From the NCBI GenBank assembly GCA_019359435.1, contig JAHHHI010000063.1:1-64000 (forward strand): DNA of 64,000 nt. Reading direction: 5' to 3'. The notes under the pieces are model-generated. The model saw only the letters and a list, made by a program, of their open reading frames with translations, searched no databases and was not told where the DNA came from. Source of the stretch: Kaiparowitsia implicata GSE-PSE-MK54-09C. GTDB taxonomy: Bacteria > Cyanobacteriota > Cyanobacteriia > Elainellales > Elainellaceae. The position numbers and the translations under genes are program-made. Every line of letters starts with the position of its first letter. Position 1 is the stretch's first letter. This document shows positions 45,695 to 64,000 of this stretch, in pieces.

Positions 45695-48007
45695 TTACTC
45701 CACAATTTCGATCACAGTGGAGAAGGCGGCGATCGCATCGGGAGCCACTGCCGTATCTTCAGTGCTGACCATCTCCACTTCAACAGAACCAGAGCTCCGA
45801 GACATCCCATCGACATCGCTGAGCAAGTCGTCGATTAAGCTCAGGGGGTTGCCTTCAGTAAAGCCCACTGGGCCACGGGTGTCGCCTCGGCCTTGGGCGA
45901 TTGCTTGCAGATTGCGCAATATACCCCTCAGCGGCTGTCGGCTGACGATGGTTAACACTTCCACAAAGCCCGTATCCCGCAGCCGAAACTGGAAGCCATC
46001 CTCGGGCCGCGGTACAACTAGGGTTTCATTGGCGTCGATGCGGGCCGCCTCGTCCGGGGCATTCCAGGTGTTAGGATAGAGAGCAATGGTATTGCCCTGG
46101 CTATCGATCACCAGACAGCTCAGGTAGACATCTGTGGCCTCCTCGTTGTTGACCCGCAGCTGAATAACATCGCCGGAGGGATAGGTAGCTGTTGTCACCT
46201 GGGTTCGCAGGCGCGATAGGTCGCCCTGGGCCGCTTCACCGGCGATCGGCACCGTTGGCCCCTGGCCGCTGGTGCTAAAGATTTCACCCCCCACGCGCAG
46301 GCTGGTGGGAGTACCCGCCAGCTGCTGCAAGGCCCGAGCCACCAATAGCGCCCGAAATCGGGGCCGCAAGCGGTTGACCGCTGCTGAGGCCGATTCATTC
46401 ACGGGGCCAGCGGTGTTGGGCACGAGCACGCTAAGGTCGGCGGCATACAACCCCACAGAGCCAATGGGTGGCGGACTGGTCGCCCCGGCAGTGCGTAGGT
46501 CTGCCTGCATGGTCTCGCTGGTGCGAGCCAGCACAAACTCTACATCCGCCTGTTGATCGACGGGCAGCACGGTAATGCGGTTGACGGCCTGGCCGCTAGT
46601 GGTGGTCGTGGTGCCCAGCGCCGCATTCAGGGCGGTTTCTGCCACAACTCGCTCGGTCGATAGAGATGAATCGATTCCAATGCGCAGGGAAGGGACCGCC
46701 AAAGCCGCTACCTTTTCTCGCAGTAAAAGCCCTGGCTTGACGCTAGTGGTTTGGCCCTCTGTCAGCTTGCCGTAGGCCAATAGCCCATTGCGCGACTCCA
46801 ACTCCACATCGCCCAAGGTATTGCCCGTCGCCGGATCGATCAGCGAATAGACGGTACCTACCCGAGCCGTTTTAAGGGTTTGGGGCGACAGCCCTCCCAG
46901 CCAAAACTCAATCTGGGAGTCGGTTACGGTTCTCACCACCGCATCGGCAAAGGGAGCCAGAGACGAGGTGAAGTAGAGGGGCTGGCCCAGGCTGTTGCTG
47001 TCAGGGGCCGCTTCAAAAATAGGCACCTGAGGCTGGCGGCTTTCGGTAGCGGCGGTGATACGAGTGCTGCGCACCAAATTTACCTGGGTGGTGCTGGCGG
47101 CTTCGGCCCCTGGCACTTGCCACAGATAGCTCGTCAGCAGGTAGGTGAAAATGCCTGAGCTTTCGCCATTGTCAAAGGGCATTTCCCAGGCCTCTTGGTC
47201 ACAACTGGCAGAGCCCAGAGCTACCCCTTTGGCTATGCCCAGGGAGCGTCGCCGATGGAATTCGACCTCATCCAGGCTGAGATCCTTCATCCAGCGCTCT
47301 TGCTGTTCAATTTCATCGGGAATAGGCTTGAGAACTACATCGGGGTTGCCCGATATCCGAGCGCTGGTGGCCGATCGCACCCTGGCATTACCCCGCGTGC
47401 CTGCCCCAGAATGGCAACTATCCAGTACTAGGGTGACATTGTCGGTGTCTAGGCGTTGGCTGAGCAAAAATAGGGTGCGACCCATGATGTCAGCCACTTC
47501 AATTTCGTTCTGACCTTGGGTTCTGACACGCCCCGCATCGCGAGTCACTAGGGTGCCATTGCGACCGTATTCGTCGGCACCGCCACACTGGGCCACTGTA
47601 ATAGGCTGGGGGTCTTCCACTCGCGAGCCATGTCCAGAGTAGTGGAAGACAACGATGTCGCCCGGTTTGACCTGCTGAATCAGGTGTTCTTCAAAGGCCT
47701 GGAGAATGTTAGCGCGGGTGGGCAAAATACCGGAGTCATCCGTGACGCGGAGGATATCAGCCTCTTTGAACCCGAAGCGATGTTTGAGCAGCTCGTACTG
47801 CATGTTGACATCGTTGAGGCAGCCGTAGAGCTCTGGAACACTGGGGCCGGGGTATTGGTTCACCCCCACCAGCAGGGCCAGTTTGCGGGGCGTACCCTGG
47901 GCCAGGGCTTTGCCGTAGTGGTTGGCCTGGCGCAAAAAGTTGGTCTGGCTCAGGCCGATAGCGGCCAGGCTAGACCCAGCAGCTTGCAAAAAGTGGCGAC
48001 GTTTCAT
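45695..48007 (-). CDS. Exported caspase-family peptidase (orthocaspase)
   Basis: The 770-residue protein begins M-K-R-R-H-F-L-Q-A-A-G, a Tat-type twin-arginine signal, so it is probably exported folded. The p20-like C14 domain follows, with the catalytic histidine H126 in F-H-Y-S-G-H-G-S and cysteine C198 in L-D-S-C-H-S-G-A-G. The long C-terminal half (about 350-770) includes a DUF4384-like beta region (L-R-V-N-N-E-E-A-T-D-V-Y-L). Orthocaspases cut after Arg or Lys. I chose the ATG at 48007 since the Tat motif starts there; other starts at 48016 and 48130 are in frame. A trypsin gene ends close upstream. Confidence 0.88.
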   Translation of the reverse strand: MKRRHFLQAAGSSLAAIGLSQTNFLRQANHYGKALAQGTPRKLALLVGVNQYPGPSVPELYGCLNDVNMQYELLKHRFGFKEADILRVTDDSGILPTRANILQAFEEHLIQQVKPGDIVVFHYSGHGSRVEDPQPITVAQCGGADEYGRNGTLVTRDAGRVRTQGQNEIEVADIMGRTLFLLSQRLDTDNVTLVLDSCHSGAGTRGNARVRSATSARISGNPDVVLKPIPDEIEQQERWMKDLSLDEVEFHRRRSLGIAKGVALGSASCDQEAWEMPFDNGESSGIFTYLLTSYLWQVPGAEAASTTQVNLVRSTRITAATESRQPQVPIFEAAPDSNSLGQPLYFTSSLAPFADAVVRTVTDSQIEFWLGGLSPQTLKTARVGTVYSLIDPATGNTLGDVELESRNGLLAYGKLTEGQTTSVKPGLLLREKVAALAVPSLRIGIDSSLSTERVVAETALNAALGTTTTTSGQAVNRITVLPVDQQADVEFVLARTSETMQADLRTAGATSPPPIGSVGLYAADLSVLVPNTAGPVNESASAAVNRLRPRFRALLVARALQQLAGTPTSLRVGGEIFSTSGQGPTVPIAGEAAQGDLSRLRTQVTTATYPSGDVIQLRVNNEEATDVYLSCLVIDSQGNTIALYPNTWNAPDEAARIDANETLVVPRPEDGFQFRLRDTGFVEVLTIVSRQPLRGILRNLQAIAQGRGDTRGPVGFTEGNPLSLIDDLLSDVDGMSRSSGSVEVEMVSTEDTAVAPDAIAAFSTVIEIVE

Positions 48008-48133
48008 TGAGGGCATGGTGAATCTCCAAAAGGCAGGGTCAATTGTTGAGTTGGCTGAGACCTTGCTCAGGCCGCGAGGGCGTTCACGCGGTGGCTCCAA
48101 AGGGGGCAAGTCACCGGAGTAAGCCAGCACCAG

Positions 48134-49108
48134 TTAGAAAGCTTGGCGGATGAAGCTGACAATCGGGTCAATTTTGACCCCGTAGTTGACAATGCCTTGG
48201 CTCTGAATGGTTTCTCCGGTGCTGGCGTTGACTTGCCGATCTGTACGTTCAGCGGAGTTGAGCCCTACAATGCGAAATTCACCGTCAATGACGGCCAGCA
48301 TTGGCCCCCCAGAAGAACCGCCGTGGGTGTCGCAGTCATGAATCAAGCTATCTTCCACTTCACCCAGCACGTTGCAGCCCTGATGCACCCCAGCGGTGCG
48401 GCCCGGTGCGTGGGCTGGGAAATCGCCCGAGTAGCCCACGGTGGTTAACCCCCCTCGATGGTTGCGGACTAGCTCAGATACTGAGAGCGATGACCAAGCC
48501 AGGGTGCCATAGGTATTGCCCAGGGGGCGATCGAGCTTGACAAAAGCCCAGTCGTTGGGGTGAGGGAAGCTAGACTCGTCGCTGAAGTTGGTACCGTAGA
48601 TAATATCGACCACGTTGGCGATATGGTCAGCCTCTCTAACCCGGCCATTGACCATGTTGGGATGAAAGGTAATGTTAGTTTTGACCTGGTGGGTTTCAGG
48701 ATTCACCACACAGTGGGCGTTGGTGAGCACCACGTCGGGGGCAACCAGACTACCGGTGCAGAGATCGATATATCTCTCCCCGGCTGGGCTTTGTAGACGG
48801 CCAATGGCCGACCACGGATAATGGCTGCTGGTCACTTGGGTGCGATCATCGCGGAGACCAATGACACCCCGGCCTCCTCTAGGGTCACTCGACTGGCTGA
48901 GCCCAGCCGGAATGTAGGGCTCGGGGTTGGGGGTGAGGCCAAAGGCCAAAACTTTTTCAGCAGCAGTGCGCTGTACCTGGCGAAGGGATTGCCCGACGAC
49001 AGATTGGGCTTGGGCTGATAGGTTAGCCAGCATGCCCAGGGCTAGCATGGCGGCCCCAGCACTTGCTAGCACAAGCCTGGCGGAGCGACGCGAGGAAATA
49101 AATCTCAT
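48134..49108 (-). CDS. Secreted trypsin-like serine peptidase (V8/glutamyl-type)
   Basis: The 324-residue protein has a Sec signal peptide (basic residues, then hydrophobic 12-33, ending S-A-Q-A). The chymotrypsin-fold triad is complete: H132 in L-T-N-A-H-C, D186 in H-P-N-D-W-A-F-V and S266 in H-G-G-S-S-G-G-P. The H-G-G-S pattern resembles the V8/glutamyl endopeptidase group, but the specificity is unproven. A propeptide-like segment (35-80) may keep it inactive until cut. It is 126 bases upstream of the caspase gene and paralogous to the interrupted trypsin at 52866-53813. An activating cleavage of the caspase is a tempting idea without proof. Confidence 0.88.
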   Translation of the reverse strand: MRFISSRRSARLVLASAGAAMLALGMLANLSAQAQSVVGQSLRQVQRTAAEKVLAFGLTPNPEPYIPAGLSQSSDPRGGRGVIGLRDDRTQVTSSHYPWSAIGRLQSPAGERYIDLCTGSLVAPDVVLTNAHCVVNPETHQVKTNITFHPNMVNGRVREADHIANVVDIIYGTNFSDESSFPHPNDWAFVKLDRPLGNTYGTLAWSSLSVSELVRNHRGGLTTVGYSGDFPAHAPGRTAGVHQGCNVLGEVEDSLIHDCDTHGGSSGGPMLAVIDGEFRIVGLNSAERTDRQVNASTGETIQSQGIVNYGVKIDPIVSFIRQAF

Positions 49109-49248
49109 GATTAGTATTTTTGGCTGAATGCGGTGACATCTTTACCTATATCTGGCGGCAGGGAACTTATACAGATAGGTTTTAGTGTTTCATAGCTGGG
49201 CGAATCCTAGTTTTTTATTTCTGTAAAAATGAAGACGCCCAGAGTTCA

Positions 49249-52200
49249 CTAATCGGCGGAGCCAATCAGGGTGAAGGCGGCCCACAGGCGGGGGTCGGGG
49301 TGTTGCGCCATGGTGGTGAGCATGGCCTGGCGCAGGGCCTGGGCTTTGTCGCCGCTCTGTTGCCAGTTGTCGTAGAAGGCGACCATGAGATCGGCGGTGG
49401 CGGCATCATCCACGGCCCACAGCGACACAATGATGCTGGGCACCCCTGCCGCGACAAAGGCGCGGGAAAGCCCCACCACCCCATCGCCGGTGATGCGCCC
49501 CCGCCCGGTGTCACAGGCGCTGAGGATGGCTAGGTTGGCCTGTAAGTCCATCGCCAAGATCTCAGCAGAGGTGAGCAGGCCGTTGTCACCGCTGCCGGGG
49601 GCGAGGGCAATGGCACCGGGCAGGTCGCGGGTGCCGGTTTCACGGGGGTCACCGTACTCCAGCAGGCCGTGGGTGGCCAGATGAATCACATCGGCTCCGG
49701 CCATGCGCTGCTGCACCGCCACCTTGGTGGCGGCACTGCCCAACAGTGCCGGGGTTTGCAGAAAGCCGGAAATCGCCTCGGCCTCCCGCTGGGCACCGGG
49801 CAGGGGGCTGAGCCGCATATCCTGGAAGGTGCCGCTCTCGCTGAGGAAGGTGACGGTGGGCATGGTGGGGTTGCCGACGATTAGGGCGTTGTCGGTAGAA
49901 AAGAGCGAACCGCCGTTTGCGGTGGCAGCGGCAGATCTGGCCTCGGTCGCCAGGCCGAAGACCTGGATGGAGGGGGCAGTGAGGATGGTGTGATTCTCGA
50001 TCAGGTAGCTGCCGTCGGGGGCTTTGAGGGCGGCGAAGGGCACTAGAAATAGCTCTTCCTGGGGCATGAAGACCACAGGCTGCTTGGGGTCGGCGGGCAG
50101 CAGGTCGGCGATGGGAGCAATCAGCAGATCGTAGAGCTGGCGGAGGTTGGCCTCGGTGCGGGCCTGCTGCTGGGCAAGGTATTCGGGAGTAGGCTCGGGA
50201 ACAATGGTGGCTCGATCGCCCCGTACGCCAATGGCGTCGCGGGCGGTGATGACGAGGTCTTGCAGGCGCACACCAGTTGAGGGTTGGGTCCGAAGTTCGA
50301 TGTTTCCAGCCTCGGTTTCCACGGCAATATTCCTCTCCGATGCCAGGGCCACCGACTCAAAGGCAATTTCCCCCGTGGGCTGCACAACCCAGATATACAG
50401 CCTGTCTGCTTCCTGCGGTCTGGAGTAGCTGACGAGGGTGACGTTTTGCTGTTGGGCGATGCGCCGAATCTGTGACAGGTTGGGAACCGTATCTAAAAGG
50501 TCTTGCTCCGCTGAGGTAGAGATATGGTTGGCCAGCGTTTCCACCAGCACCCTAGCGCGTCCCCGTTCTGAGGCCACCAAAGCGTCCTCAATCCTTCCCT
50601 GCTCAATGAGGGTGCGCTGTAGGGTGGCATAGCCCCCTCGCTGGATTTCAAACAGGGCTAGCTTATCGGTGTCGTTGAGGTCGCCCTCGCGTAGCCTGTC
50701 TGAAATGTCTAGGGCACTGAGCAAATACTGTTCGGCTTGGGTATGTTGCCCCAGATTCATGTGAATGAGGGCGAGACCATAGAGGCTCTCTTGCTCCCCA
50801 GCTTGGTTGCCCCGTTCGCGATGGATAGCCAAGCTTTGCTCGTAGGCCGCGACGGCGTCCTGGGCAATGGCTTCCTGGGGAAGGAAGGAATGCATACTAC
50901 GGTAAACACTGCCCAAGTTGATGAGAATAGTCGCTTCTTCGGCCCGCAGGCTACGCTGCTGGGCGAGGGTGAGCGCTCGCTGATATAATCCCAAGATTTC
51001 TGGATATCTCCAATCAACACGTAACGCTCCCTCTGATACCCCCAGTGTTCTGGGGTTGGCAAGGTACCACCTGCCTATGTCAACCCAGGCTCGGATTAGA
51101 GCTAAAGGTTCATCTAAGCCGTTGGCAATCTCAATACTTTGATTCAGCAGTTCAATTCGGCGAAAATAGTTTGGGTGAACTGCCGCCAAATTTCTCAAGG
51201 CCATGGCCTCGCTAGAGCGATCCTGCAGCTCACGGGCGAGATTCAAACTTTGTTCATACAGTTCAAAGGCTTGCTCGTCTCGACCCAGGGTTTGGTACAA
51301 GAACCCGAGGTTATTGGTCGTGCGTCTGACGCCAGAGTTGTCATTGGCCTCGCGGGCTAGAGTCAGCGCTTGTTGATAGGATCCTATCGCCCGCTGATAC
51401 TGTCCCAGGGCAAACTGGGAAATGGCAATACTGTCAAAGGCGTTGCTTTGGCCATTAATATCGTTGATCTCAGTATAAATCTCCAGGGCTTGATAGTGCC
51501 AGTTGAGGGCCTGACTCGGGTTGCCGAAGGCTCTGTAGGATACACCTAGGTTGCCTAAAGCCGCTGCCTCCTGGGTGCGATCAGGAATAGCACGGGCAAC
51601 GGTTAGGGACTGCTGATGAAAGTCAATGGCTTGGGGATAGTTGCTGAGGGTGCGGTGGGCGATGCCAAGATACCGCAAAATCTCCGCTTCCCCGCTGCGA
51701 TCGTCGTTTGCCCGTTTGATCGCCAAAGATTGCTCAAACACATCGATAGCGCTTTGAATTTGGCTGGTAACGCTGTAGAGGCTTCCCAGTCGATCTAACA
51801 GGTGTTCTGTCTCTGCTCTATTGTCTAAGACTTGCCAAATCTCCAGGGCTTCTTCATAGGCCGCAATGGCCTCTTCACGATTTTGCTGACGACTATGGGT
51901 GTTGCCGAGAGCCGTAAGGGCGGTGGCAACACCAGACTGATCTTGAAGCTGGCGTCTGAGGGCGATGGCTTGCTGTTGCAAGTCGATGGCCTGATCGTAG
52001 TCGCCTAGGGCCTCGTGAGTATTGCCAGTCATTAGGAGTATCCTGGCCTCTTCTCGACGACTGATCGCGAGCAGCGTTTCGGGCACGGCCCCACCGTCTG
52101 TAAATCCAAAAGCTTGTTTGCGGATCAAGGCTTGCCTGTAGGTCTGTAGCGCTGCTGCAAAATCCCCGGTGCTGTACTGTTCTCCTCCCCGCTGCGATAG

Positions 52201-52755
52201 GGTAACGGCATCAGAAATGAAGATTTCTGCCTCCGTTGAATTGGCGACCCTCATCTGATAAGAACCCTGACCATTCTCGTTGTGGGTGGTCACACGAATG
52301 CTATAGGTTCCATCCGCTGGTAGGCTGGCTACCAGCCACGCATCCTCTGCAGAAATCAGGGTGACCAGGCCAGAACCCACCAGCGTATTGGTCGATGCAT
52401 GGGTCACAAGAATCCAGGGCGCAAAATCACGACTTTTGACCTGAATGGTAATCGTTTGGCCTGCCTTGCCTTCAAACTGGTGCGTGTTAACCAGTCGCAC
52501 TGAGTCAGGGCCATCATCACCCTGTCGCAGAGTAATATTTCCACTGCGTTCATCCAATTGATGGGTGGCGCCAAACGCATCTGAGGCTCCTTCTTTTGCC
52601 CGAATACTCAGCTGAAATGGTTCGGTGGCCTCGACCCTGGGGGCTTCAAACTCTTGAGCCAAAGCCGCAGCTGTGAGCAGGGCTGGGATCTCGGCAAAAG
52701 GCGCCATCGCAACTGTAACCGCAACCAAACCAAACCACTTCGCTGCGTAACGCAT
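49249..52755 (-). CDS. Exported PPC-TPR-CHAT protease
   Basis: The 1168-residue protein has an N-terminal signal (hydrophobic 6-34). A pre-peptidase C-terminal (PPC) type beta domain lies at about 60-185, with F-x-G-x-A-G-Q-T-I-T-I-Q-V and P-A-D-G-T-Y-S-I-R-V. About ten TPRs follow (200-640), then a CHAT domain (about 800-1168). The caspase-like dyad is H1029 in H-L-A-T-H-G and C1081 in L-S-A-C-D-T-G. CHAT-TPR proteins are caspase-related proteases, known in other bacteria as partners of gasdermins or CRISPR effectors. I took ATG 52755 as the start. It lies between two trypsin genes. Confidence 0.9.
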   Translation of the reverse strand: MRYAAKWFGLVAVTVAMAPFAEIPALLTAAALAQEFEAPRVEATEPFQLSIRAKEGASDAFGATHQLDERSGNITLRQGDDGPDSVRLVNTHQFEGKAGQTITIQVKSRDFAPWILVTHASTNTLVGSGLVTLISAEDAWLVASLPADGTYSIRVTTHNENGQGSYQMRVANSTEAEIFISDAVTLSQRGGEQYSTGDFAAALQTYRQALIRKQAFGFTDGGAVPETLLAISRREEARILLMTGNTHEALGDYDQAIDLQQQAIALRRQLQDQSGVATALTALGNTHSRQQNREEAIAAYEEALEIWQVLDNRAETEHLLDRLGSLYSVTSQIQSAIDVFEQSLAIKRANDDRSGEAEILRYLGIAHRTLSNYPQAIDFHQQSLTVARAIPDRTQEAAALGNLGVSYRAFGNPSQALNWHYQALEIYTEINDINGQSNAFDSIAISQFALGQYQRAIGSYQQALTLAREANDNSGVRRTTNNLGFLYQTLGRDEQAFELYEQSLNLARELQDRSSEAMALRNLAAVHPNYFRRIELLNQSIEIANGLDEPLALIRAWVDIGRWYLANPRTLGVSEGALRVDWRYPEILGLYQRALTLAQQRSLRAEEATILINLGSVYRSMHSFLPQEAIAQDAVAAYEQSLAIHRERGNQAGEQESLYGLALIHMNLGQHTQAEQYLLSALDISDRLREGDLNDTDKLALFEIQRGGYATLQRTLIEQGRIEDALVASERGRARVLVETLANHISTSAEQDLLDTVPNLSQIRRIAQQQNVTLVSYSRPQEADRLYIWVVQPTGEIAFESVALASERNIAVETEAGNIELRTQPSTGVRLQDLVITARDAIGVRGDRATIVPEPTPEYLAQQQARTEANLRQLYDLLIAPIADLLPADPKQPVVFMPQEELFLVPFAALKAPDGSYLIENHTILTAPSIQVFGLATEARSAAATANGGSLFSTDNALIVGNPTMPTVTFLSESGTFQDMRLSPLPGAQREAEAISGFLQTPALLGSAATKVAVQQRMAGADVIHLATHGLLEYGDPRETGTRDLPGAIALAPGSGDNGLLTSAEILAMDLQANLAILSACDTGRGRITGDGVVGLSRAFVAAGVPSIIVSLWAVDDAATADLMVAFYDNWQQSGDKAQALRQAMLTTMAQHPDPRLWAAFTLIGSAD

Positions 52756-52865
52756 GAGGGCAATGCTCCATTTTTGAGGTGATATCAAGATGTAGGTCTG
52801 ACCCCGAAGAGCTTATTCAGCTTCAGGTCAGTTTCCTTCCTTTTACACAGCCATCAGGCTGTAAC

Positions 52866-53183
52866 TTAGGGCGCTTCCGTCTGAAGCTGGCGCACAATGC
52901 GGGGAATCTTGACGGCAAAGTTGACGATTCCTTCTCCGGTATCGCGACGGGATGCCCCCGATGCGTGGAGCGCCACGATGCGGTACTGGTCATCGACCAT
53001 GGCCAAAATTGGCCCCCCCGATGCACCGCCTGTGGTGTCGCACAGGTGCAGCACCAACGAAAGATCCTCCGCTACAATGCTGCATCCCTTGTGGGCGCTG
53101 GCGGTCTGCCCCGGATTGTCGGCGGGGAAGTCGCCGGAGTAGCCCACCATAATCAAATTCTCGGCAAAGTCGTTAATTAATAC
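52866..53183 (-). pseudogene. C-terminal part of the interrupted trypsin
   Basis: Directly after the TAA at 53186-53184 the same frame continues V-L-I-N-D-F-A-E-N-L-I-M-V-G-Y-S-G-D-F-P and holds the catalytic serine in T-T-G-G-A-S-G-G-P (position 265 of the read-through protein). The part aligns closely with the intact paralogue at 48134-49108 (G-Y-S-G-D-F-P-A, then H-x-G-C). An ATG at 53156 could restart translation but without signal peptide or the other catalytic residues. One base change restores the gene. Confidence 0.75.
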
Positions 53184-53813
53184 TTATGAAGGCAGCGGGC
53201 TGAAGCCAATGGTGCCGTAGGTCTGGCCCAGGGGTTTGTCGAGCCTGACCAGCGCCCAGTCGTCAGGACTGGGTTCATCGGGGTTCCACCCGACAAAGTC
53301 GGTGCCCAATAGCCATCCAGTCACCTCAGCGACATCGTCCTCGTGGGTCACAAGACCATTGACCAAGTTGGGGTGGAACTCAATGCGTTGACTGTGCTGT
53401 CTTGTGCGAGGATTCACCACGCAGTGGGCGTTCGTGAGGACGATATTATCGGTCACCAGAGTACCTGTGCAGGTGTAGCCACTGCCGTTGGACATAAAAC
53501 CGACAATTTGGCCCATTGCCGACCAGGGGTAGGCTTTGCTGTACACAGGCTGGCGATTGTCAGGGCCAATGATGACGCGCCCGCCTTCCGAAGGGTTGTC
53601 TGACTGGCTCAACCCCTCAGGAATAAAGGAGCGGCTAGCCTCTATATCAAACTCCAGTTCTGAGAGGTTGGTCAGGCTAGGAAGCTGGGTTTCTGCCGTA
53701 GTTTGTTCAGTGGCCTGTGCCTGCCAGGACAGACTCGCCTGGGTTAAAGGCACTGCAGCTAGGGCAAACCCCACCGACGCCATGCCCAGAGTCAAAAAAC
53801 GATTCATAGCCAA
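53184..53813 (-). CDS. Secreted trypsin-like peptidase, cut before the catalytic serine
   Basis: The 209-residue product has a signal peptide (residues 1-27) and the first two triad residues, H130 in L-T-N-A-H-C and D185 in P-D-D-W-A-L-V. It stops at a TAA after I-G-F-S-P-L-P-S, before the strand that carries the serine. In the paralogue at 48134 the sequence runs on without interruption. The truncated product cannot be a protease but could still bind substrates. Alternatively the TAA is a sequencing error or a recent mutation (TCA, CAA or GAA to TAA). Confidence 0.75.
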   Translation of the reverse strand: MAMNRFLTLGMASVGFALAAVPLTQASLSWQAQATEQTTAETQLPSLTNLSELEFDIEASRSFIPEGLSQSDNPSEGGRVIIGPDNRQPVYSKAYPWSAMGQIVGFMSNGSGYTCTGTLVTDNIVLTNAHCVVNPRTRQHSQRIEFHPNLVNGLVTHEDDVAEVTGWLLGTDFVGWNPDEPSPDDWALVRLDKPLGQTYGTIGFSPLPS

Positions 53814-53928
53814 AAGTCCTCAACATGAATGACAAAAGCGCGATGCCCCCAGCTTCTCTGGTACCTGCTCCTCACCAGTCGGAAGCTGCCCAGAGAAACC
53901 AGGAACAAGAAGAAGGATCAGGGGCTGA

Positions 53929-55673: not shown

Positions 55674-55760
55674 GGAAGTAAGTCCTTACGAAAGGGGTTT
55701 GTTGCTGTCGTAGGTACTTACTTCTGAGCGATTATGACTTATTCAGTTCTGGGAGATTTT

Positions 55761-56471: not shown

Positions 56472-58854
56472 GAGAAGCCTCCTTGAGCTTGGGTAAACTA
56501 TACAACCACAGGGTGAGCGACGGCAGCAGCCAGGGCAGCAGCACCGCCGCAGTAATGTAAATTTGCAACGCCAACACCCCGTAACCCACAGTGGCCGCCG
56601 TTAAACAGGCCGCCAGAGTAAGGCGACGGGGAGAATGCTGGCTCAGGTAAAGCGTCAGCGCCTTGCCCACTGCCGCCGCCGCCAGCACCAGCCACAGGTC
56701 GGGGATGGGAATCACCAGGCGATCGCGGATCAGGTGGTGGGTGATATAGGCGTGGGTTTCGCCACCGGTAAAGTCGAGCAGGCGCTGGCCCGTGCGATCG
56801 CGCCAGTAGCCAATGGCGCGCGGCTGGGGAAAGTTATCGTCGCCCTCGCGGCCAATGCCCGCTGCATCGTAGTAGCCCGGCACGATCATCACCAGGGTCT
56901 GGTCGAGGCTGGTCAGGGGCAGCAGGGCCGTATCGGGGTCGTCCAGCAGTTGCCAGGCGGGCACCGTGCGGTAGACCTGCGACGGCGGCATGGAAAAGTC
57001 AATCAGCGGTTGCAGCCAGTGCTGGCCAAACCGGGTGGAGATCTGCGTCAGGGGGTGCACCTCCGCCCAGGGCGACAGGCCCAGGCTATGGTCTCGCTGG
57101 TAGGCCTGCACCTGGGTTTCGAGGGGTGGCCCGCTGAGGCGGGGGCGGGGCACGTCGGCATCGCCAGCCCGAGCCTTTTGGTGCAGTGTCCAGGCGGTGG
57201 CCAACTGGTAGCTAAACGGGGTTTTGGCTTCGGGCCAAGGTTCGCGGGGCAGCACATGGCGAAAGGGTACGAAGGCATTGCCCTGCAAAATCCAGTCGGG
57301 GTTGACGACGGTGGGGTAAGGGTTGGTCCAGGAAAAGTCGCGGTTGCGAATGCTGATCAAGACTGGCCAGGTTTGGGTTTGCTCGATGGCCTGGCGCAGA
57401 GCCTGGTTGAAAGTGGGGTCATGGTCGGTCTGGGGCATATCGAGCAAGTAGTCGAGACCGATGACGGCGGCCTGGCGCTCATGCAGTCGGGTGATCAGGT
57501 CGGCCAAGAGAGAACGGTCAATCGGTCTGGGATTGGCAATACCTTGACGATTGAAGGTCTCGGGGTCGATCTGCACCAGCAGAATCGGGGGTGGGTCGGT
57601 GGCTATCTGGCCGGTGCGATCGCGGTAGACCGCCTGAGCCCACACCCGCTGATCGAGCAGCCAGTTCTGCACAGCAGGCAACAGGCTGAGCAGGGCGATC
57701 GCCGTCACGGTAACAGCCTCATGCTTGGTCGGTCGCCAGCGCCGGGCCAGGGCACGCCAGCCCACCGGCTGAATGCGGTAGGGCACCGAGTCGGGATGGC
57801 GAAACAGTGAGGGCACCAGGTAGGCCGACGGGTAGGTGAATTTGTGCTTGGCATCTAAGAACTCGCAGGCTCCTCGTAGGGCTTCCTGCACATCCTCAAA
57901 CTGGGCCAAACGCTGGAGCAACTGCACCAAAAACGTTTGGGCCACCTCGTTGTGAATGGGCTCTCGCATGATGGCCACCTGGCTCAGACCCAAGCTGATC
58001 AGAGCCTGGGCGATATCCAGGCCGCTGCACGAGTTGAACAGGGCAAACTGTAGGCCGTGGCGCTGGGCCTCCCGCAAGGCGGGGGTGAGTTCTTTAATGG
58101 AAAGGGCGGTGTTGGGGGCGATCGCCACCTGACCATCCAGCAGGGCCGCTTCGTTGCTGTGACCGGCAAAAAACAGCACGTCCCACCCCTGGGGGTCGGC
58201 AATGGTGCGGCAAATGCGCTGCTTTAGGGCGTTGGTATCTTCCCCCGGCTGCCAGCCTAGATAGTGAATCTCCAGCAGCTTTTTTTGGGCATTGAGGGCG
58301 TTGCGCTCGCCGGTAAAGTTGAGCCCGGTTTCGTCGCCGAGAATGGCCAGCACCCTGGCTTTACCCCGCCGAAACGACTGGCGATCGCCCGTGGCGGCGC
58401 GGATATTGGGGGGCGATCGCACGATCTGCACCTGCTGCCCCAGCTCCCAGGTCTCCCAGGGCAAGCGGGCAATTTCGATCGGGTCGCAGGTGATAAACAG
58501 CTCGGTCTTGGCATGGTCACGTTCTGCCGCTGGGGATGCCGAGGTCAACTCGGCCCGTAGGTCAAACAGTTCGCCATCCTTCAGCCAGGTGTGCAACTCC
58601 GACAGCAGTCGAGCCTCAGCCTGCTTGAGCTGACTATGCCAATCGACCTCGGCAGCCACCACCTGCCCGGTGGCCCCGACTCGGCCCCGCAGCGCCTGCT
58701 TGTAGTAGCCCAGGTAGGCCCGCCGCCAGGCATCGTACAGCCCTAGTAGTGCTGGAGGAAAAGCCAGGCGCGTAGATAGCTGCTGCCCCTTGCCCCAGGT
58801 GAGGTCAAATAGGCAGCTCTGGTCTATTTTGCGAATGGTCAGGCGGTAGGGCAT
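56458..58854 (-). CDS. CHAT-CHASE2 membrane protein
   Basis: The 798-residue protein has an N-terminal CHAT-type peptidase domain (about 100-350) with dyad H232 in F-F-A-G-H-S and C276 in F-N-S-C-S-G. A transmembrane helix follows at about 368-385, then an extracytoplasmic CHASE2 sensor domain (about 400-700, with I-L-L-V-Q-I-D-P-E-T-F and D-x-L-L-D-M-P), and three C-terminal transmembrane helices (710-790). This layout suggests an external signal switches an internal caspase-like protease. I chose ATG 58854, where the conserved M-P-Y-R-L-T-I starts; the frame is open to 58950. It overlaps DUF928. Confidence 0.88.
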   Translation of the reverse strand: MPYRLTIRKIDQSCLFDLTWGKGQQLSTRLAFPPALLGLYDAWRRAYLGYYKQALRGRVGATGQVVAAEVDWHSQLKQAEARLLSELHTWLKDGELFDLRAELTSASPAAERDHAKTELFITCDPIEIARLPWETWELGQQVQIVRSPPNIRAATGDRQSFRRGKARVLAILGDETGLNFTGERNALNAQKKLLEIHYLGWQPGEDTNALKQRICRTIADPQGWDVLFFAGHSNEAALLDGQVAIAPNTALSIKELTPALREAQRHGLQFALFNSCSGLDIAQALISLGLSQVAIMREPIHNEVAQTFLVQLLQRLAQFEDVQEALRGACEFLDAKHKFTYPSAYLVPSLFRHPDSVPYRIQPVGWRALARRWRPTKHEAVTVTAIALLSLLPAVQNWLLDQRVWAQAVYRDRTGQIATDPPPILLVQIDPETFNRQGIANPRPIDRSLLADLITRLHERQAAVIGLDYLLDMPQTDHDPTFNQALRQAIEQTQTWPVLISIRNRDFSWTNPYPTVVNPDWILQGNAFVPFRHVLPREPWPEAKTPFSYQLATAWTLHQKARAGDADVPRPRLSGPPLETQVQAYQRDHSLGLSPWAEVHPLTQISTRFGQHWLQPLIDFSMPPSQVYRTVPAWQLLDDPDTALLPLTSLDQTLVMIVPGYYDAAGIGREGDDNFPQPRAIGYWRDRTGQRLLDFTGGETHAYITHHLIRDRLVIPIPDLWLVLAAAAVGKALTLYLSQHSPRRLTLAACLTAATVGYGVLALQIYITAAVLLPWLLPSLTLWLYSLPKLKEASHESS

Positions 58855-58925
58855 GGGGGGTGGGGAGTGGATGGGTGGGGAGTGGATGGGGTAGGGGCAG
58901 ACCCGTGTGTCTGCCCCCCGGGGGA

Positions 58926-61922
58926 TTAGAAATCGCTCATAGGGCTCCACTCTCCAGAAAACAAAAACGACGCCCAGTAGTAGGGGTGCTGGTAGGCGGG
59001 GGCCTCGATAAATTCGAGCTGCACCTGGCGCAGGGCTTCACTGCGGCCTTCGCCGTTTTGCAGCCGCTGGTAGTAGTGCTGCATCAGCTCGGCGGTGCCA
59101 AAGTCGTCTACTTTCCACAGGCTCATGAGCTGGCTTTCGGCTCCGGCCATGACAAAGGCGCGGCGCAGACCGTAGACCCCTTCGCCATTGGCGACCTGGC
59201 CGACGCCGGTTTCGCAGGCGCTCAGCACCACCAGGCGGGTGCCGCGCAGGTTTAGCCCGGTGGCCTCCAGGGCAGTGAGGACGCCGTCTTCGCCTGCACT
59301 GTCGCGGGGGTTGAACCCGGCCAGGGCCAGGCCAGAGCGCAGCAGCGGGTTTTCAGTGCTGGTGGGGCGGGTGGGTGGGGGTGCCTGCCCGGTGGTGATG
59401 ATGTCGATAGAAGCGCGATCGCCCCGCGTAGCCCCAGGGGGCGGCACAAACTCCACATCTTCGAGAAAGAATCCGTGGGTGGCGATATGCAGAATGCTGG
59501 GGGCCTGGACTTGTTTGAGGGCATTTTCGGTGGCGTTGGCCTCGGTGAGGATGATGGCGTTGTCTGGAAGCAGGGGGGTAATGGCATCGACTTCTTGCTG
59601 GGTGCCGGGGAGGGGGCCAAAGCGCAGGTCGGCGATGTCGCCAGAGCGAGTCCTCCCGTTCCCTTCGACTCCGCTCAGGGAACGGGAGCCTGGGCGAGGG
59701 GAGGTGGAAGCGGCGGCGATGAGTTGGGTGCCGCTGGGGTCGGCGGTGTCGTAGTTGGGGTTGGCAAAGAGGATGGGGGGCTGCTGGCTGGGGGCAGGGT
59801 TTTGCAGGCGCAGCAGGTCGCGCCCGGTGGTGAGGTGGGTGAGGGTGTAGGTTTCGACCAGGTAGCGGTCTTGCTCATTGAGCAGGGCGGCGAAGGGGAC
59901 GAGGTTGAGCTGGCTGTCGGGGGAGAGCAGCAGGTGGGTGGCCTCGCCGAGGAGGGGGCGGATGGGGGCCATAACCAACTCGTCGAGGGCGCGGGCGGTG
60001 GTGCGGGCCTGGGAGAGGGAGTTGGGGGTGCGGGTGGCGGCGAGGAAAGCGCGGGCGGCGGTGTCGATGGTTTCGGCATCACCGAGATCGACCCATTGGG
60101 GGTCGCCAGTGCTGTGGAGGATGTAGGCGGCGTAGCGGGGGGTGCCGAAGCGCTCAGATTGGCTGGCGGTGGGGTCGGAGGGGCGATACTGCACCAGTTC
60201 TACCAGGGCAGCATCGGCGGGAATCAGTGCTTGGACGGCCTCGATTTCCACAGGCTCGGTTTCCACCCGAAACTCATCACTGCGGCGGGATAGTTCATTT
60301 TCCAGGCGGTTGGCTTCTTGGCGGAGGTTGTCGATGCGATCGCGGTAGACTTCCGGGTCTTGGTCGCCTAGGCCGCCGTAGAGTTGGGTGGCAAGCTGGG
60401 TTTGCACGGTGGTGTACTCGTCCAGCAGAGGGGCGAGGTCGGGGCTGAGGTTTTGGCGTAGGAGTTGTTGGGTGTCGGTGACAGCATCAAGGACGCGCCC
60501 TTTGCGGCGCAGCACGATGGTGAGGGCCAGGCGGGCAGCGGCGGGGTTGGTGGTGGCATCTTGTAGGTGGAGGGAGATGGCAAGGTCGGTAGTGCTGGAT
60601 ATGGTGGCGATGTAGTCCAGCTTGCGATCGTCGGAGCCGATGGCCAGGTTGAGGCTGAGGTTGGTCTCCTCTACCGCCAGCCCCTGCTGCAACCATGTCA
60701 AAGCAGTATTCATTTCTCCTTGCGCCCAGTACAGCCCAGCTAGGTTGTTAAGGCTGGTGGCAATATTGGGGTGGCGATCACCCAACTGCTCGTGCCAAAT
60801 GTCCAGCGACTCCCGGAAAAGGGGAGCGGTCTCTCCATAACGCCCTTGCGCCTGGTATAGCAAGGCCAGATTATTGAGGCTGGTGGCGACCAAGGGGTGG
60901 CGATCGCCCAACTCCTCACGATAAATATTCAGCGCTTCCTGAAAGAGGGGTTCGGCCTCCCCATAGCGTCCTTGATTCTGATACAGCAGAGCCAGGCTAC
61001 TGAGGCTTTGGGCGACTGCGGGATGGCGATCGCCCAACTGCTCACGATCAATTGACAGCGACTCCTGTAAGAGAGGTTCTGCTTCCCCAAAACGTCCTTG
61101 TGCTTGATATAGCGAGGCTAGGTTGTCGAGGCTGATGGCAACCAATAGGTGGCGATCACCCAACTGCTCACGGCTAATATCTAGTGACTCTTGATAAAGA
61201 GATTCAGCCTCCTCAAAGCGGCCTTGCGCCCGGTACAGCAAGGCTAGGTTGTTGAGGCTGATGGTCACATCAGGATGGCGATCTCCCAACTGCTCACGAC
61301 GAAGAGCTAGCACTTCCTGGAGGAGGGGGGCGGACTCTTCGTAGCGACCTGCCTGGTACAACTCGATTCCCTGATCATTGAGGCGGTTTGCTTCGGTTAG
61401 TGAACCTACCCGTTCTACATCAGCCGCTGTCCCCGGTTGCACAGTCAATTGGTAATTGCCAGTTTCACCAGCAGCAAACGAGTTGGCTAGGATGCTATAC
61501 GTCCCCGCAGTTGGCAACGTCAGTGTGATGCGAGCATTTATCCCACCGCCCCCATCATCATCCAAAGCTATGAGAACATCGTCTGGGCTACGAAGTAGTA
61601 GAGAGGCATCAAAATCATTACTGACCAGGTCAATAACAACGATTTGACCCGCTAGCCCCTCAAATGGGTGGACATTAAAAAAGCTGCCATCATCCAAAAC
61701 CTCGCTATTCTCATCCAGCACCCCCACAATGGTCAGCGGCTCAAACTCTGGAACCGACTGGGCTACCCTCATCGCCTCAGCCTGGGCCGGGGGCCGCGAC
61801 CAGACGCTGGGGCTTTGGCCCACCAGCAGCGCCGCCAGCAGCGCTAGACTCACCATGCGGGTGATTCGTCCATTCTGCATAACCCAAACCAACCTGCGGA
61901 TATGCTGTGGTAGCGATGTCAT
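58926..61922 (-). CDS. Exported PPC-TPR-CHAT protease, second copy
   Basis: The 998-residue protein has a signal peptide in its first 50 residues, a PPC domain (about 75-165: F-E-G-L-A-G-Q-I-V-V-I-D-L, then T-A-G-T-Y-S-I-L-A-N-S-F), about six TPRs in 42-residue units (190-440), and a CHAT domain (about 600-998). The dyad is H816 in H-I-A-T-H-G-F and C903 in V-L-S-A-C-E-T-G. A palindromic repeat is inserted in frame in the CHAT domain (59653-59688). It is 72 bases upstream of the CHAT-CHASE2 gene. Domain order equals that of the 49249 gene, but sequence differs considerably. Confidence 0.9.
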   Translation of the reverse strand: MTSLPQHIRRLVWVMQNGRITRMVSLALLAALLVGQSPSVWSRPPAQAEAMRVAQSVPEFEPLTIVGVLDENSEVLDDGSFFNVHPFEGLAGQIVVIDLVSNDFDASLLLRSPDDVLIALDDDGGGGINARITLTLPTAGTYSILANSFAAGETGNYQLTVQPGTAADVERVGSLTEANRLNDQGIELYQAGRYEESAPLLQEVLALRREQLGDRHPDVTISLNNLALLYRAQGRFEEAESLYQESLDISREQLGDRHLLVAISLDNLASLYQAQGRFGEAEPLLQESLSIDREQLGDRHPAVAQSLSSLALLYQNQGRYGEAEPLFQEALNIYREELGDRHPLVATSLNNLALLYQAQGRYGETAPLFRESLDIWHEQLGDRHPNIATSLNNLAGLYWAQGEMNTALTWLQQGLAVEETNLSLNLAIGSDDRKLDYIATISSTTDLAISLHLQDATTNPAAARLALTIVLRRKGRVLDAVTDTQQLLRQNLSPDLAPLLDEYTTVQTQLATQLYGGLGDQDPEVYRDRIDNLRQEANRLENELSRRSDEFRVETEPVEIEAVQALIPADAALVELVQYRPSDPTASQSERFGTPRYAAYILHSTGDPQWVDLGDAETIDTAARAFLAATRTPNSLSQARTTARALDELVMAPIRPLLGEATHLLLSPDSQLNLVPFAALLNEQDRYLVETYTLTHLTTGRDLLRLQNPAPSQQPPILFANPNYDTADPSGTQLIAAASTSPRPGSRSLSGVEGNGRTRSGDIADLRFGPLPGTQQEVDAITPLLPDNAIILTEANATENALKQVQAPSILHIATHGFFLEDVEFVPPPGATRGDRASIDIITTGQAPPPTRPTSTENPLLRSGLALAGFNPRDSAGEDGVLTALEATGLNLRGTRLVVLSACETGVGQVANGEGVYGLRRAFVMAGAESQLMSLWKVDDFGTAELMQHYYQRLQNGEGRSEALRQVQLEFIEAPAYQHPYYWASFLFSGEWSPMSDF
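59653..59688. repeat. TTCGACTCCGCTCAGGG palindrome inside the CHAT coding region
   Basis: CTCCCGTTCCCT and AGGGAACGGGAG form a perfect 12-bp stem around TCGACTCCGCTC. It is read in frame as part of a Ser/Arg/Gly-rich loop (R-S-L-S-G-V-E-G) between conserved CHAT strands. This repeat family is usually intergenic. Confidence 0.7.
60720..61340 (-). repeat. 126-bp repeats encoding TPRs of the second CHAT gene
   Basis: Five to six tandem units, each with CAA[CG]T[GC]CTC[AG]CG-type and AGG[CT]TG[AT]TGGC-type blocks, encode 42-residue TPRs. They are more diverged than those at 42344-43142. Confidence 0.6.
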
Positions 61923-61996
61923 AGCGGCCTCTTAGGAGTAGACTCTGGCAAATAGGGGGCTTCATTCCATCATTCATATTCCTGGCCGCACCAAAC

Positions 61997-62119
61997 TTAT
62001 TCAGCCTTGCCCAGATAGTCTTTAGCTTCAGCCAGGCGGCAGTGATCTTCGACAGCCTGCTGGATAAAGCCGATATTTTGGTCGAAGGTGCGGCTCGTTT
62101 GCTGGGCAAGTAAGCCTGC
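61997..62119 (-). other. Open in-frame extension after the DUF1822 stop
   Basis: After the TGA of DUF1822, the same frame stays open for 40 codons to TAA at 61997. It reads like protein: Q-Q-T-S-R-T-F-D-Q-N-I-G-F-I-Q-Q-A-V-E-D and then C-R-L-A-E-A-K-D-Y-L-G-K-A-E. There is no start codon of its own. It is either a relic of another gene or part of a longer original protein. Confidence 0.35.
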
Positions 62120-63307
62120 TCACACCTCGGGCCGAAACACAAACGGAGGCCAGTTCAGGGTCGTACCATTGGGCAGCTCCACCATGGCGGTAAACTGCTC
62201 ATCCCAGGTGCCAATCACCTGGGCATATAGGTAGGCGGCATCGAGATCTGGGCTCAGAGTTTGCTCCGCCAAAATCGCCTCGGTATCGCGCACAATCAGC
62301 CGGGTGCCGGGCGGCAGCTGTTCCCCAGGCACCGGCCCCAAAAAGAGAAACAGCGACCATTCCGGCGGGCGAGGTTCAAACATCGTCCAGGTGAGGGCAT
62401 AGAGCCGAAACGGTAGGCCAAACTGCTGGAGGTCGGTGTAGGCTCCCCTGGCGGTACTGGGAATCGAGCCCCCCGCTGGTTCTAAATCTCGCAAAACGGC
62501 CTCCAGCTCTTCAGCCGGGGTGCTGGTCGACATCATGGCGTGGGCTGGGGCCAGGGGTGGCAGCAGCGTCCAGGCCAACCCATCGGCCACGGTGTCGAGT
62601 TGGTCGCGCAGCCAGCGGCCCGCGTTGATCAAGTCGCCCGCCCGCTGAGTGAGTAAGGATGGTCGTGCTGGAGCCGATGCCGCTGCGGGGCTGGCCGCCG
62701 CCAGCTGCTCCGGGTTGAGGCAGGTCAGGTAGAGCAAGATATCTTCGGGGGAGCTATCGAAGTACTGCACGGGCAAAGTATAGGTGCCATCGGCCTGGGC
62801 GACAAGTTCCCCCTGGCGCAGGTGGGCCAGCAGGCGATCGCGCCGTAGTCCCGCCAAAATAGTCACCTGGTCGGCTTCTTCTTGCACCTCGGCCAGCACG
62901 TAGAGGTGGGCAAAATTGGCGGCATCGTCCACCGCGCTCTGGGGAATCGTCACCACCTCGTCGCTGAGGCTACCCTGGGCCACCACCGCCAGGCGAAAGT
63001 CGTTGACCCGGCAGGTAACCGTTGGATTGGGGGGGCGATTGCGATCGTAATAGATGGCGATATCTTGAGCCCCGGCCTCTAACCACTGTTGCAGCCCCTG
63101 CACCGCCATGGCCCGCAGAAACGTCGGCCACTGCTGGGCCACATCGGGCTCTTGCTGGCAGATCTGCACCGCCCAGTCGATCGCAGCGGCAGACAGAGTC
63201 ACCATAGATGAGCGCCAGGGCTCAAACTCAAACTCAGCAGACTCGGCAGAATAGCTCATAGGAGGTAGATGGGGAAATGGGTAGGCGGCGAAAGAGAGCA
63301 ATATCAT
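62120..63307 (-). CDS. DUF1822 family protein
   Basis: The 395-residue protein is soluble, without signal peptide. It matches DUF1822: an N-terminal helical part with W-A-x-x-x-C-Q, I-A-I-Y-Y-D-R near 85, L-Y-V-L-A-E-V-Q-E near 135, Y-L-T-C-L-N near 188, and a C-terminal beta part ending L-N-W-P-P-F-V-F. The family is cyanobacterial and usually follows a sigma-like gene upstream of CHAT and CHASE2 genes. Its role is unknown; a regulator or anti-sigma-like partner is a guess. The ATG at 63307 overlaps the previous stop (ATGA), so translation is coupled. Confidence 0.8.
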   Translation of the reverse strand: MILLSFAAYPFPHLPPMSYSAESAEFEFEPWRSSMVTLSAAAIDWAVQICQQEPDVAQQWPTFLRAMAVQGLQQWLEAGAQDIAIYYDRNRPPNPTVTCRVNDFRLAVVAQGSLSDEVVTIPQSAVDDAANFAHLYVLAEVQEEADQVTILAGLRRDRLLAHLRQGELVAQADGTYTLPVQYFDSSPEDILLYLTCLNPEQLAAASPAAASAPARPSLLTQRAGDLINAGRWLRDQLDTVADGLAWTLLPPLAPAHAMMSTSTPAEELEAVLRDLEPAGGSIPSTARGAYTDLQQFGLPFRLYALTWTMFEPRPPEWSLFLFLGPVPGEQLPPGTRLIVRDTEAILAEQTLSPDLDAAYLYAQVIGTWDEQFTAMVELPNGTTLNWPPFVFRPEV

Positions 63308-64000
63308 GACTCAGTACCCGGCATAAAGGGATGAATGGTGGTGCAGAGCTGATGGGCAAACAGGCTTTTAGCGGTGCGGCCCTTTGGCTGTTGAGCTTCA
63401 GCGGCGGCGGTGGCCAGCATCTCGTCTACCTCCTCGGCCAGCAGGGCCTCTAGGGTCTGGTCGAGGGCCTTAAGGCGATCGGCAGACACGTAGGCAAGGG
63501 CCTGGCGGCGCACGGTTTCGTAGAGCTGGGGTAGCAGCCGATGGCGCACATCCGATCGCAGGCGTTTCAGATTCAGCAATCGATTCACCTGCACCTGAGA
63601 GCTGAGGCCAATGTCGGGGGCCAGCTTGCCCATGCCCAGCCCTTTGCAATGGAACAGATGCAGCCCCTGCACGTAGGCCTGATCTTGAGGCGGCTTACGG
63701 CCCCGCAACCGATCAATGTTGGCCTGAATGACGGCGGCGATCGCCCCATCCAGCTCCTGCACCATGGCCTGGCGGTAGGCCTGCAAAAACTCGTCCTGGT
63801 CATCGCCAGTATCGGGGGGCGGGCTGGCCTGGGCATCGGCCACTTTTTCCCAGTCGAGGCTGTCAGATTGATAGGCCAGGGCTGGGCCGCCCCGCACATG
63901 CACTCGGTACTGACGCAGTTGCCCGGCTAGCTGCCGCAGCTGGGCCAGTACCTCTTTGGGCGGCAGGTCGGGGGCAATCGCCCGCAGTTGTTCGGTGGTG
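63304..64000 (-). CDS. Sigma-70-like factor of the DUF1822 cluster (partial)
   Basis: The frame runs off the right edge; 232 residues are visible. The C-terminal part has the pattern of a cyanobacterial sigma-like family that accompanies DUF1822: Q-A-Y-V-Q-G-L-H-L-F-H-C-K-G-L-G-M-G followed by L-A-P-x-I-G-L-x-x-Q-V-Q-V-N-R-L-L-N-L-K, a helix-turn-helix that should contact the -35 element, then a helical tail ending K-S-L-F-A-H-Q-L-C. The N-terminal region 2 is outside. If it is a real sigma factor, it may direct the following protease genes. The GTG at 63903 is not the start. Confidence 0.65.
   Translation of the reverse strand, partial: TTEQLRAIAPDLPPKEVLAQLRQLAGQLRQYRVHVRGGPALAYQSDSLDWEKVADAQASPPPDTGDDQDEFLQAYRQAMVQELDGAIAAVIQANIDRLRGRKPPQDQAYVQGLHLFHCKGLGMGKLAPDIGLSSQVQVNRLLNLKRLRSDVRHRLLPQLYETVRRQALAYVSADRLKALDQTLEALLAEEVDEMLATAAAEAQQPKGRTAKSLFAHQLCTTIHPFMPGTES

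Follow-up and report, generated by a model that had tools for sequence, protein, structure and literature searches.

A promoter-like motif links predicted exported CHAT, caspase and trypsin-fold protease genes to a putative diverged sigma factor in cyanobacteria

The question raised by this locus is what holds together a run of co-directional genes encoding predicted exported proteases. No role has so far been assigned to exported CHAT and caspase proteins in cyanobacteria. We analyzed the window, which is a stretch of 64,000 nucleotides at the beginning of a contig (C65) of Kaiparowitsia implicata, together with the continuation of this contig and other genomes. The initial annotation had viewed the gene set as an envelope proteolytic cascade. 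We prefer, with a probability of about two in three, to read the set as the regulon of an alternative sigma factor that is coupled to a receptor, with the predicted exported proteases as the regulon's output.

The genes of the cluster in the window lie on the minus strand, and the original gene calls and their order were upheld by Pfam and by re-examination. The cluster is headed by a sigma-like gene, SIG (445 aa; 63304..64000 in the window, full gene C65:63304-64641 with its start outside the window), which overlaps by 4 bp the gene of a 395-aa DUF1822 protein (62120..63307; Pfam DUF1822, E=1.2e-26), whose position after SIG is conserved. These are followed by a predicted exported PPC-TPR-CHAT protease (58926..61922; Pfam CHAT, E=1.3e-87, and TPR, with PPC at E=1.4e-4 just under its cut-off), a predicted membrane sensor-protease with CHAT and CHASE2 domains (56458..58950, probable start 58854; CHASE2, E=8e-19; CHAT, E=1e-8; transmembrane segments), a predicted exported DUF928-like protein (55761..56471), whose gene overlaps that of CHAT-CHASE2 by 14 bp and is the conserved fourth core gene, and a free PPC protein of 152 aa, also predicted to be exported (55215..55673; PPC, E=1e-5). 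Further downstream are a Trypsin_2 or HtrA-like protease (53929..54897; Trypsin_2, E=8e-15), a V8-type trypsin gene (52866..53813), a TPR-CHAT protease (49249..52788; CHAT, E=1.6e-72), a second V8-type trypsin (48134..49108; Trypsin, E=1e-11, with triad motifs), which ends 3 bp before the caspase ORF, and a caspase of the orthocaspase type with a Tat signal and DUF4384 (45695..48130; Peptidase_C14, E=5e-19). Export is predicted for the Trypsin_2, TPR-CHAT and second V8-type proteins as well; signal peptides were assigned by eye and by hydropathy.

The four Cys-protease dyads of the initial annotation proved correct once the start was moved to an internal Met: H126/C198 in the caspase, H1029/C1081 in the TPR-CHAT protease, H816/C903 in the PPC-TPR-CHAT protease and H232/C276 in CHAT-CHASE2. 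Pfam also finds a trypsin domain at all three predicted trypsin-fold proteases; the ORF at 53184-53813, however, is only the N-terminal half of its trypsin, and the frame goes on to 52866 past a single in-frame TAA (53184-53186), with the H, D and S motifs kept across both sides. The cluster extends past 64 kb, to about 92 kb on C65, which up to about 98 kb has more CHAT genes, a subtilase, an additional V8-type trypsin and a trypsin-NACHT-HEAT-TIR gene. No match came from scanning the window with Rfam and for tRNAs, scans for sigma70-consensus promoters and terminators gave counts not above those of shuffled sequences, PADLOC returned only generic caspase, TPR and trypsin matches for the cluster proteins, and NCBIfam gave nothing informative. 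A protein scan of genome contigs found three close relatives and no others.

The order SIG, DUF1822, CHAT-CHASE2 and DUF928-like forms a core operon, found in the same family, at about 20 loci, and in six further families (f3, f13, f16, f23, f24 and f32); this operon and the linkage of caspase with TPR-CHAT genes recur in at least seven cyanobacterial families. Confinement to this genome had been named as an outcome that would speak against a common system, and the neighborhood is in fact found in other genomes. No DNA-binding candidate other than SIG is conserved in the core operon. The DUF928 assignment stands only by way of orthologues, seven of 14 positional orthologues matching Pfam DUF928 remotely (best 1.3e-5); the window protein does not match at E<=1, and we dropped its assignment on its own as unsupported. 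Two gene fusions were also set aside as evidence, i.e. SIG-DUF1822 at locus L138, which is a frameshifted gene, and CHAT-CHASE2/DUF928 at L148, where a small indel could have joined two genes that normally overlap.

In the protein encoded at 56458-58950, Pfam places CHAT at residues 135-361, with about 100 residues ahead of it, and CHASE2 at 415-759; the dyad is H264/C308 in this frame, corresponding to H232/C276 from start 58854, and is invariant in 17 orthologues. The CHAT domain precedes the first transmembrane segment and is expected in the cytoplasm, next to SIG and DUF1822. CHAT-CHASE2, which had been counted among the members of the envelope cascade, is therefore probably something different, and more likely belongs to a signaling arm.

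The caspase belongs to a clade with a clear linkage to the other genes. Its SGHG and DSC motifs (H126/C198, in the p20 domain) and its RRxFLQ Tat signal are invariant in eight orthologues. Clade members lie within 10 kb of SIG at 22 of 92 loci (0.6 expected) and within 30 kb at 34 (1.8 expected); the two genes occur together in 67 genomes (p=2e-19), and 30 of 97 genomes have such a caspase without SIG. A CHAT, SIG, DUF928-like or V8-type trypsin gene is present within 1.5 kb in about 21 of 32 distinct clade loci, as against 0 of 21 for core orthocaspases.

An unbiased search for 8-mers enriched ahead of the module's genes (34/154 vs 9/415, p=1.6e-13) led to the motif TG(A/C)ATAAG-N10-(C/T)CAG-N3-TA, which carries about 25 bits (24.6). 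It is non-palindromic, start-proximal and strictly oriented (45 correct vs 4), and its spacing is exactly 10 in 42 cases, any other spacing occurring at most three times. All eight exact copies in the 6.7-Mb host genome, and 15 of 18 copies allowing one mismatch, are inside the cluster, where they lie 12-234 bp upstream of SIG itself, the TPR-CHATs, PPC, the V8-type trypsins and the subtilase. With a matrix trained without the host family, the stretch between 49 and 92 kb contains 15 sites scoring 22 bits or more, the reversed control reaching at most 15.3. Scored in this cross-validated manner, exact minus-strand copies in the window precede the PPC-TPR-CHAT gene (61977..62003; 29.1 bits), the PPC gene (55719..55745; 29.8 bits) and the TPR-CHAT gene (52793..52819; 30.9 bits), and a copy with one mismatch precedes the second V8-type trypsin and the caspase (49147..49173; 29.8 bits). 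In the window, each transcription unit that we infer for the set has this promoter-like element, and in the host as a whole a dozen genes of predicted exported death-type proteases stand behind it; the initial annotation had asked for signs of common expression and had regarded unrelated promoters as an objection to unity, and such an objection does not hold here.

Multiple copies of the motif are confined to genomes bearing SIG. Among 390 genomes, 122 of which have SIG orthologues, two or more sites were found in 28, all of them SIG-bearing, and in none of the 268 without SIG; sites numbered 156 in SIG genomes vs 13 in the others, with 8 for the reversed control. The motif lies upstream of SIG in 20 genomes, 10 of which are outside the discovery set, and sites remote from SIG precede secreted TPR-CHATs, a caspase, a subtilase, a V8-type trypsin, a TPS exoprotein and ShlB transporters. 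An exact match is lacking in 73 SIG genomes, indicating that motif variants or divergence exist. Seven of the cluster sites precede paralogous TPR-CHATs, to which a duplicated upstream region could be common.

The case for SIG as a sigma factor is built on weak matches in structure and profile comparisons and on the promoter data; no Pfam sigma family matched any of 18 orthologues. Weak segments resembling regions 2 and 4 can be recognized. The best Foldseek matches are sigma factors, sigma-S at the top, at a non-significant E of 0.08; hhalign gave E values of 0.003-0.01, with 0.007 against the host's own sigma factors at the FDP..LSTW segment, and a weak 0.11 against SigF region 4. Residues of the putative region 4 (HTH) covary with the -35-like base of the motif at p=5e-6, a value uncorrected for phylogeny, and this covariation may reflect a single evolutionary split.

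The motif could instead be an operator. It would then be read by a different activator or by a two-component regulator whose gene lies elsewhere, and SIG would be just one target that travels with the cluster. We consider this unlikely. A common response regulator could yield the same co-occurrence, some operators are equally specific, and SIG has no significant sigma-family match; the oriented, non-palindromic, fixed-spacing and start-proximal form of the motif is nevertheless that of a promoter, and neither the absence of multiple copies in all non-SIG genomes, nor the covariation with the HTH, nor the core operon with SIG as its sole conserved DNA-binding candidate is what this explanation would favor. 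A gathering of death-type proteases in a defense island, without functional unity, appears very improbable. The cluster is indeed flanked by an NB-ARC-TPR gene (42184-44358) and the trypsin-NACHT-HEAT-TIR gene (C65:93578-97975), and in-frame stops suggest turnover, but both of these flanking STAND genes lack the motif, the core gene order is kept over families, and in other genomes genes for the same protein types follow motif sites that lie apart from the cluster.

In the envelope-cascade reading, the trypsins would activate the CHAT proteins, or the reverse, and both would activate the caspase. This is somewhat less improbable than the operator, and we still regard it as doubtful. All members of the cascade are predicted to be exported and have the promoter element in common, and the host, genome G257 and three more genomes of the genus of G257 have TPR-CHAT, V8-type trypsin and caspase genes in one group. 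Co-regulation alone, however, accounts for this grouping, the sequences give no sign of cleavage between members, and many loci pair the caspase with TPR-CHAT without a V8-type trypsin, which is present in only eight of 36 family genomes. The cascade is compatible with the sigma-regulon reading as a downstream step.

The sigma-regulon reading starts from features established at the sequence level, namely the conserved operon, the linkage, the motif with its confinement to the regulon and its site before SIG, and the region-4 covariation. SIG, as a diverged sigma70-type factor, would bind the motif, a role that we consider highly probable, and would transcribe its own operon and the genes of exported TPR-CHAT, PPC, V8-type trypsin, caspase and subtilase proteins. 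The CHASE2 domain would sense an extracytoplasmic signal and activate the cytoplasmic CHAT protease, which would free SIG; that CHAT-CHASE2 gates SIG in this way, an idea drawn by analogy, has roughly even odds. SIG would most likely be freed by cutting of DUF1822 in an anti-sigma role, as in Csx29/Csx30/CASP-sigma, and this assignment of DUF1822 is tentative; a fold search with its model matched neither a known anti-sigma fold nor Csx30, and gave only partial matches to Ig-like sandwiches. The whole proposal, somewhat below even odds, is that SIG represents a new subfamily of sigma factors with a promoter code of its own; DUF1822 would hold it, and a CHAT protease gated by CHASE2 would set it free. 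As a non-CRISPR, receptor-driven counterpart of CASP-sigma, the system would switch on secreted proteases of the caspase-fold and serine types and, in some species, a two-partner-secretion system. The common promoter makes the list of proteases a defined, co-regulated set with a candidate regulator and receptor, and a regulon with a named candidate regulator opens its trigger and role, whether in cell death, defense, competition or envelope remodeling, to a single-gene test.

The module of EACC2, sigma and DUF1822 has already been published (Kaur et al., 2021; PMC8195603), and we found no description of the regulon in the literature. EACC2-caspase systems have the alpha+beta domain EACC2 at the N-terminus, an N-terminal caspase-superfamily domain, a variable C-terminal sensor including CHASE2, and ECF sigma and DUF1822 neighbors, the sigma being predicted to mediate transcriptional output; the host locus likewise has CHAT near the N-terminus, a C-terminal CHASE2 and a DUF1822 neighbor. 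It differs in SIG, which at about 450 aa is far from standard ECF sigmas, and, as far as the accessible parts of that paper go, in DUF928, which is unmentioned there, and in the exported protease arm and promoter, which we did not find there. In DegS/RseA/RpoE, an envelope signal leads to proteolysis and a freed sigma, as would be the case in the host (the analogy is drawn in PMC10028731), but the host protease is of another clan and no anti-sigma domain is recognizable. Cyanobacterial DUF4384 orthocaspases (PMC7475262, PMC8283722) share Peptidase_C14, DUF4384 and a true H/C dyad with the host caspase, whose clade is separate from the core orthocaspases (about one per genome) and is distinguished by the Tat signal and by TPR-CHAT and SIG neighbors. 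In type III-E CRISPR, Csx29 (TPR-CHAT) cleaves Csx30, the inhibitor of CASP-sigma (PMC10028731). This Craspase, which unites a CHAT protease with a third partner and with a sigma that autoregulates its own locus, resembles the host locus as read here; no Cas7-11 or CRISPR protein is among the host cluster proteins scanned, and DUF1822 has no detectable similarity to Csx30. The Craspase CHAT depends on a guide RNA, whereas that of the host is joined to a CHASE2 membrane sensor, with secreted proteases as the predicted output, and, if this is true, control of a sigma factor by a CHAT protease would extend beyond CRISPR.

Re-examined gene calls bore out the initial annotation of caspase, CHAT and trypsin genes behind a sigma-like gene (SIG; C65:63304-64641, minus strand, starting beyond the window, which is C65:1-64000), and all four His/Cys dyads quoted there were correct. 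The DUF928 label is supported via orthologues only, not by the window protein itself, and the cluster had been only partly captured: contig C65 extends it as far as about 92 kb, adding more CHAT genes (the majority with signal-peptide-like N-termini), an additional V8-type trypsin (C65:80429-81385) and a subtilase (C65:85250-87274). It contains 10 of the 23 CHAT matches in this 6.72-Mb genome, whose closest relatives found were Leptolyngbya- and Phormidium-like cyanobacteria. An NB-ARC-TPR gene (window 42184-44358) and, after the subtilase, a trypsin-NACHT-HEAT-TIR gene (C65:93578-97975; L010:13578-17975) flank the cluster without the promoter motif described below and are candidate defence genes. 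A V8-type trypsin gene (window 52866-53813) has one in-frame TAA (53184-53186) and a TPR-CHAT gene one in-frame TAG (C65:79559-79561; L009:18559-18561), the rest of each frame being intact; these stops may reflect either real decay or sequencing error. A CHAT protein with a signal peptide and without TPRs (C65:75083-76402; L009:14083-15402) is probably an inactive pseudo-protease, because Asn replaces the catalytic His (HLAANTW). Coverage of window 1-42000 consisted of RNA and motif scans and a listing of ORFs.

Orthologues of CHAT-CHASE2 in 36 genomes of the family (39-61% identity) almost always have a divergent DUF1822 gene before them, and the family neighbourhoods present a core operon in the order SIG, DUF1822, CHAT-CHASE2, DUF928-like; often a PPC-TPR-CHAT gene immediately precedes SIG and the Tat-caspase gene lies downstream. 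This layout was also found outside the family (e.g., loci L241, L242, L247, L248 and L249/L250): in L242, SIG, DUF1822, CHAT-CHASE2, DUF928-like, TPR-CHAT and caspase genes stand in a row, and L249/L250 include a V8-trypsin-type gene. As in the window, PPC-TPR-CHAT is placed within the core in L257/L264, whose genome keeps a TPR-CHAT, V8-type trypsin and caspase triplet at another place. RTX-like Gly-Asn-Asp repeat proteins adjoin trypsin/caspase genes at L154:4953-5939, L162:3902-4801 and L164:9895-10779, two of the three with a motif site. In the class (390 genomes), 97 genomes carry the caspase clade, 122 carry SIG and 67 carry both. In SIG genomes, the distance to SIG is at most 10 kb for 22 of 92 caspase loci (0.6 expected for random placement in a 5-Mb genome) and at most 30 kb for 34 of 92, from seven families (1.8 expected), counts that are lower bounds because of contig breaks. 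As an internal control, a module gene was present within 1.5 kb at about 21/32 loci of the caspase clade versus 0/21 for core orthocaspases.

An unbiased 8-mer comparison of sequences upstream of module genes with those upstream of non-module genes at these loci found TGAATAAG enriched (34/154 versus 9/415, p=1.6e-13), while 8-mers enriched in the control set reached p=0.03 at best. Aligned copies give TG(A/C)ATAAG(T/C)(T/C)-N8-(C/T)CAG-A-N-ATA (24.6 bits), oriented towards genes in 45 cases and opposite in 4, with a spacing of exactly N10 in 42 of 61. All eight exact copies in the present genome (full matches to TG(A/C)ATAAG-N10-(C/T)CAG-N3-TA), and 15 of 18 with one mismatch, lie in the cluster. 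When a matrix trained on other families only was applied to the first 120 kb of C65, 15 sites scored 22 bits or more, all at 49-92 kb; the reversed sequence gave at most 15.3 bits. Matrix and pattern scans place sites at window 49147-49173, 52793-52819, 55719-55745 and 61977-62003, and a site before SIG lies just beyond the window (C65:64711-64737). On the basis of site positions and gene gaps, these suggest five transcription units: SIG-DUF1822; PPC-TPR-CHAT/CHAT-CHASE2/DUF928-like; PPC/Trypsin_2/interrupted trypsin; TPR-CHAT; and V8-type trypsin/caspase. Two tandem copies, 24 bp apart, occur at C65:73230-73280, upstream of a TPR-CHAT gene (70716-73190).

Exact sites were present in 49/122 SIG genomes versus 13/268 others (p=2e-17), and two or more in 28 versus 0 (p=7e-16), the totals being 156 and 13 (8 for the reversed pattern). 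The motif precedes SIG itself by 58-217 bp in 20 genomes, half of them (10/20) outside the motif-discovery set. We also read the next gene in 20 regions of other genomes where a site does not adjoin SIG. In G176 it is a signal-peptide TPR-CHAT at six sites and a TPS-domain exoprotein at another, and in G351 the motif precedes a Tat caspase 4.4 Mb away from SIG. Elsewhere the following gene encodes a subtilase, a PPC protein, a PPC-TPR-CHAT, a CHAT fragment or a truncated TPR-CHAT with a V8-type trypsin gene behind it. In two genomes it encodes ShlB/FhaC-type TPS transporters, and the site, some 200 bp upstream, is conserved. Two cases are unclear, and the remaining sites stand before genes for a protein kinase, a small signal-peptide protein and a haem-oxygenase-like protein. 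The two-partner-secretion loci with the motif are L336, L340 and L343. Genome comparison shows a conserved operon and a promoter-like element that is common to the set, autoregulatory in position and confined to SIG genomes.

No Pfam sigma domain matched SIG in 18 orthologues. Its AlphaFold model (pLDDT 84) is nearly all-helical, its best PDB matches being sigma-S and other primary sigmas at a non-significant E of 0.08, and a PDB profile search gave SigF region 4 (E 0.11). By hhalign, FDP..LSTW of SIG matches region 2.3 in sigmas encoded by the same genome (E 0.007) as well as the sigma-like gene of a second, divergent module on its contig C75 (E 0.003). That module (L024, C75:78573-82859) comprises a 211-aa sigma-like gene, DUF1822 (E=1e-54) and CHAT-CHASE2, with no exported arm adjoining. 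The third motif base (A or C) covaries, across 25 SIG genes for which a site was scored, with residues of a putative region-4 helix, V versus Y/F/other after a conserved Q and R versus E/D/other in LKR (p=5e-6 each, phylogeny not corrected for). A diverged sigma factor is the best reading of SIG, because these weak profile and fold lines combine with the promoter data.

CHASE2 would sense signals outside the cell and the CHAT domain, whose dyad H264/C308 is invariant in orthologues, would act inside; the leading candidate for an inhibitor cut by CHAT is DUF1822, encoded by a gene that overlaps SIG. That two-partner-secretion genes carry the motif is a hint that the exported proteases act outside the cell; targeting to the thylakoid lumen may also occur. 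In our full-text search of open-licence papers, we found neither the regulon nor a secreted arm with SIG described. Orthocaspases with DUF4384 are already known, and the module is published in outline. An earlier prediction for EACC2/sigma/DUF1822 loci (PMC8195603) is in line with the proposed model, in which CHAT, DUF1822 and SIG would act after the template of Csx29, Csx30 and CASP-sigma (PMC10028731).
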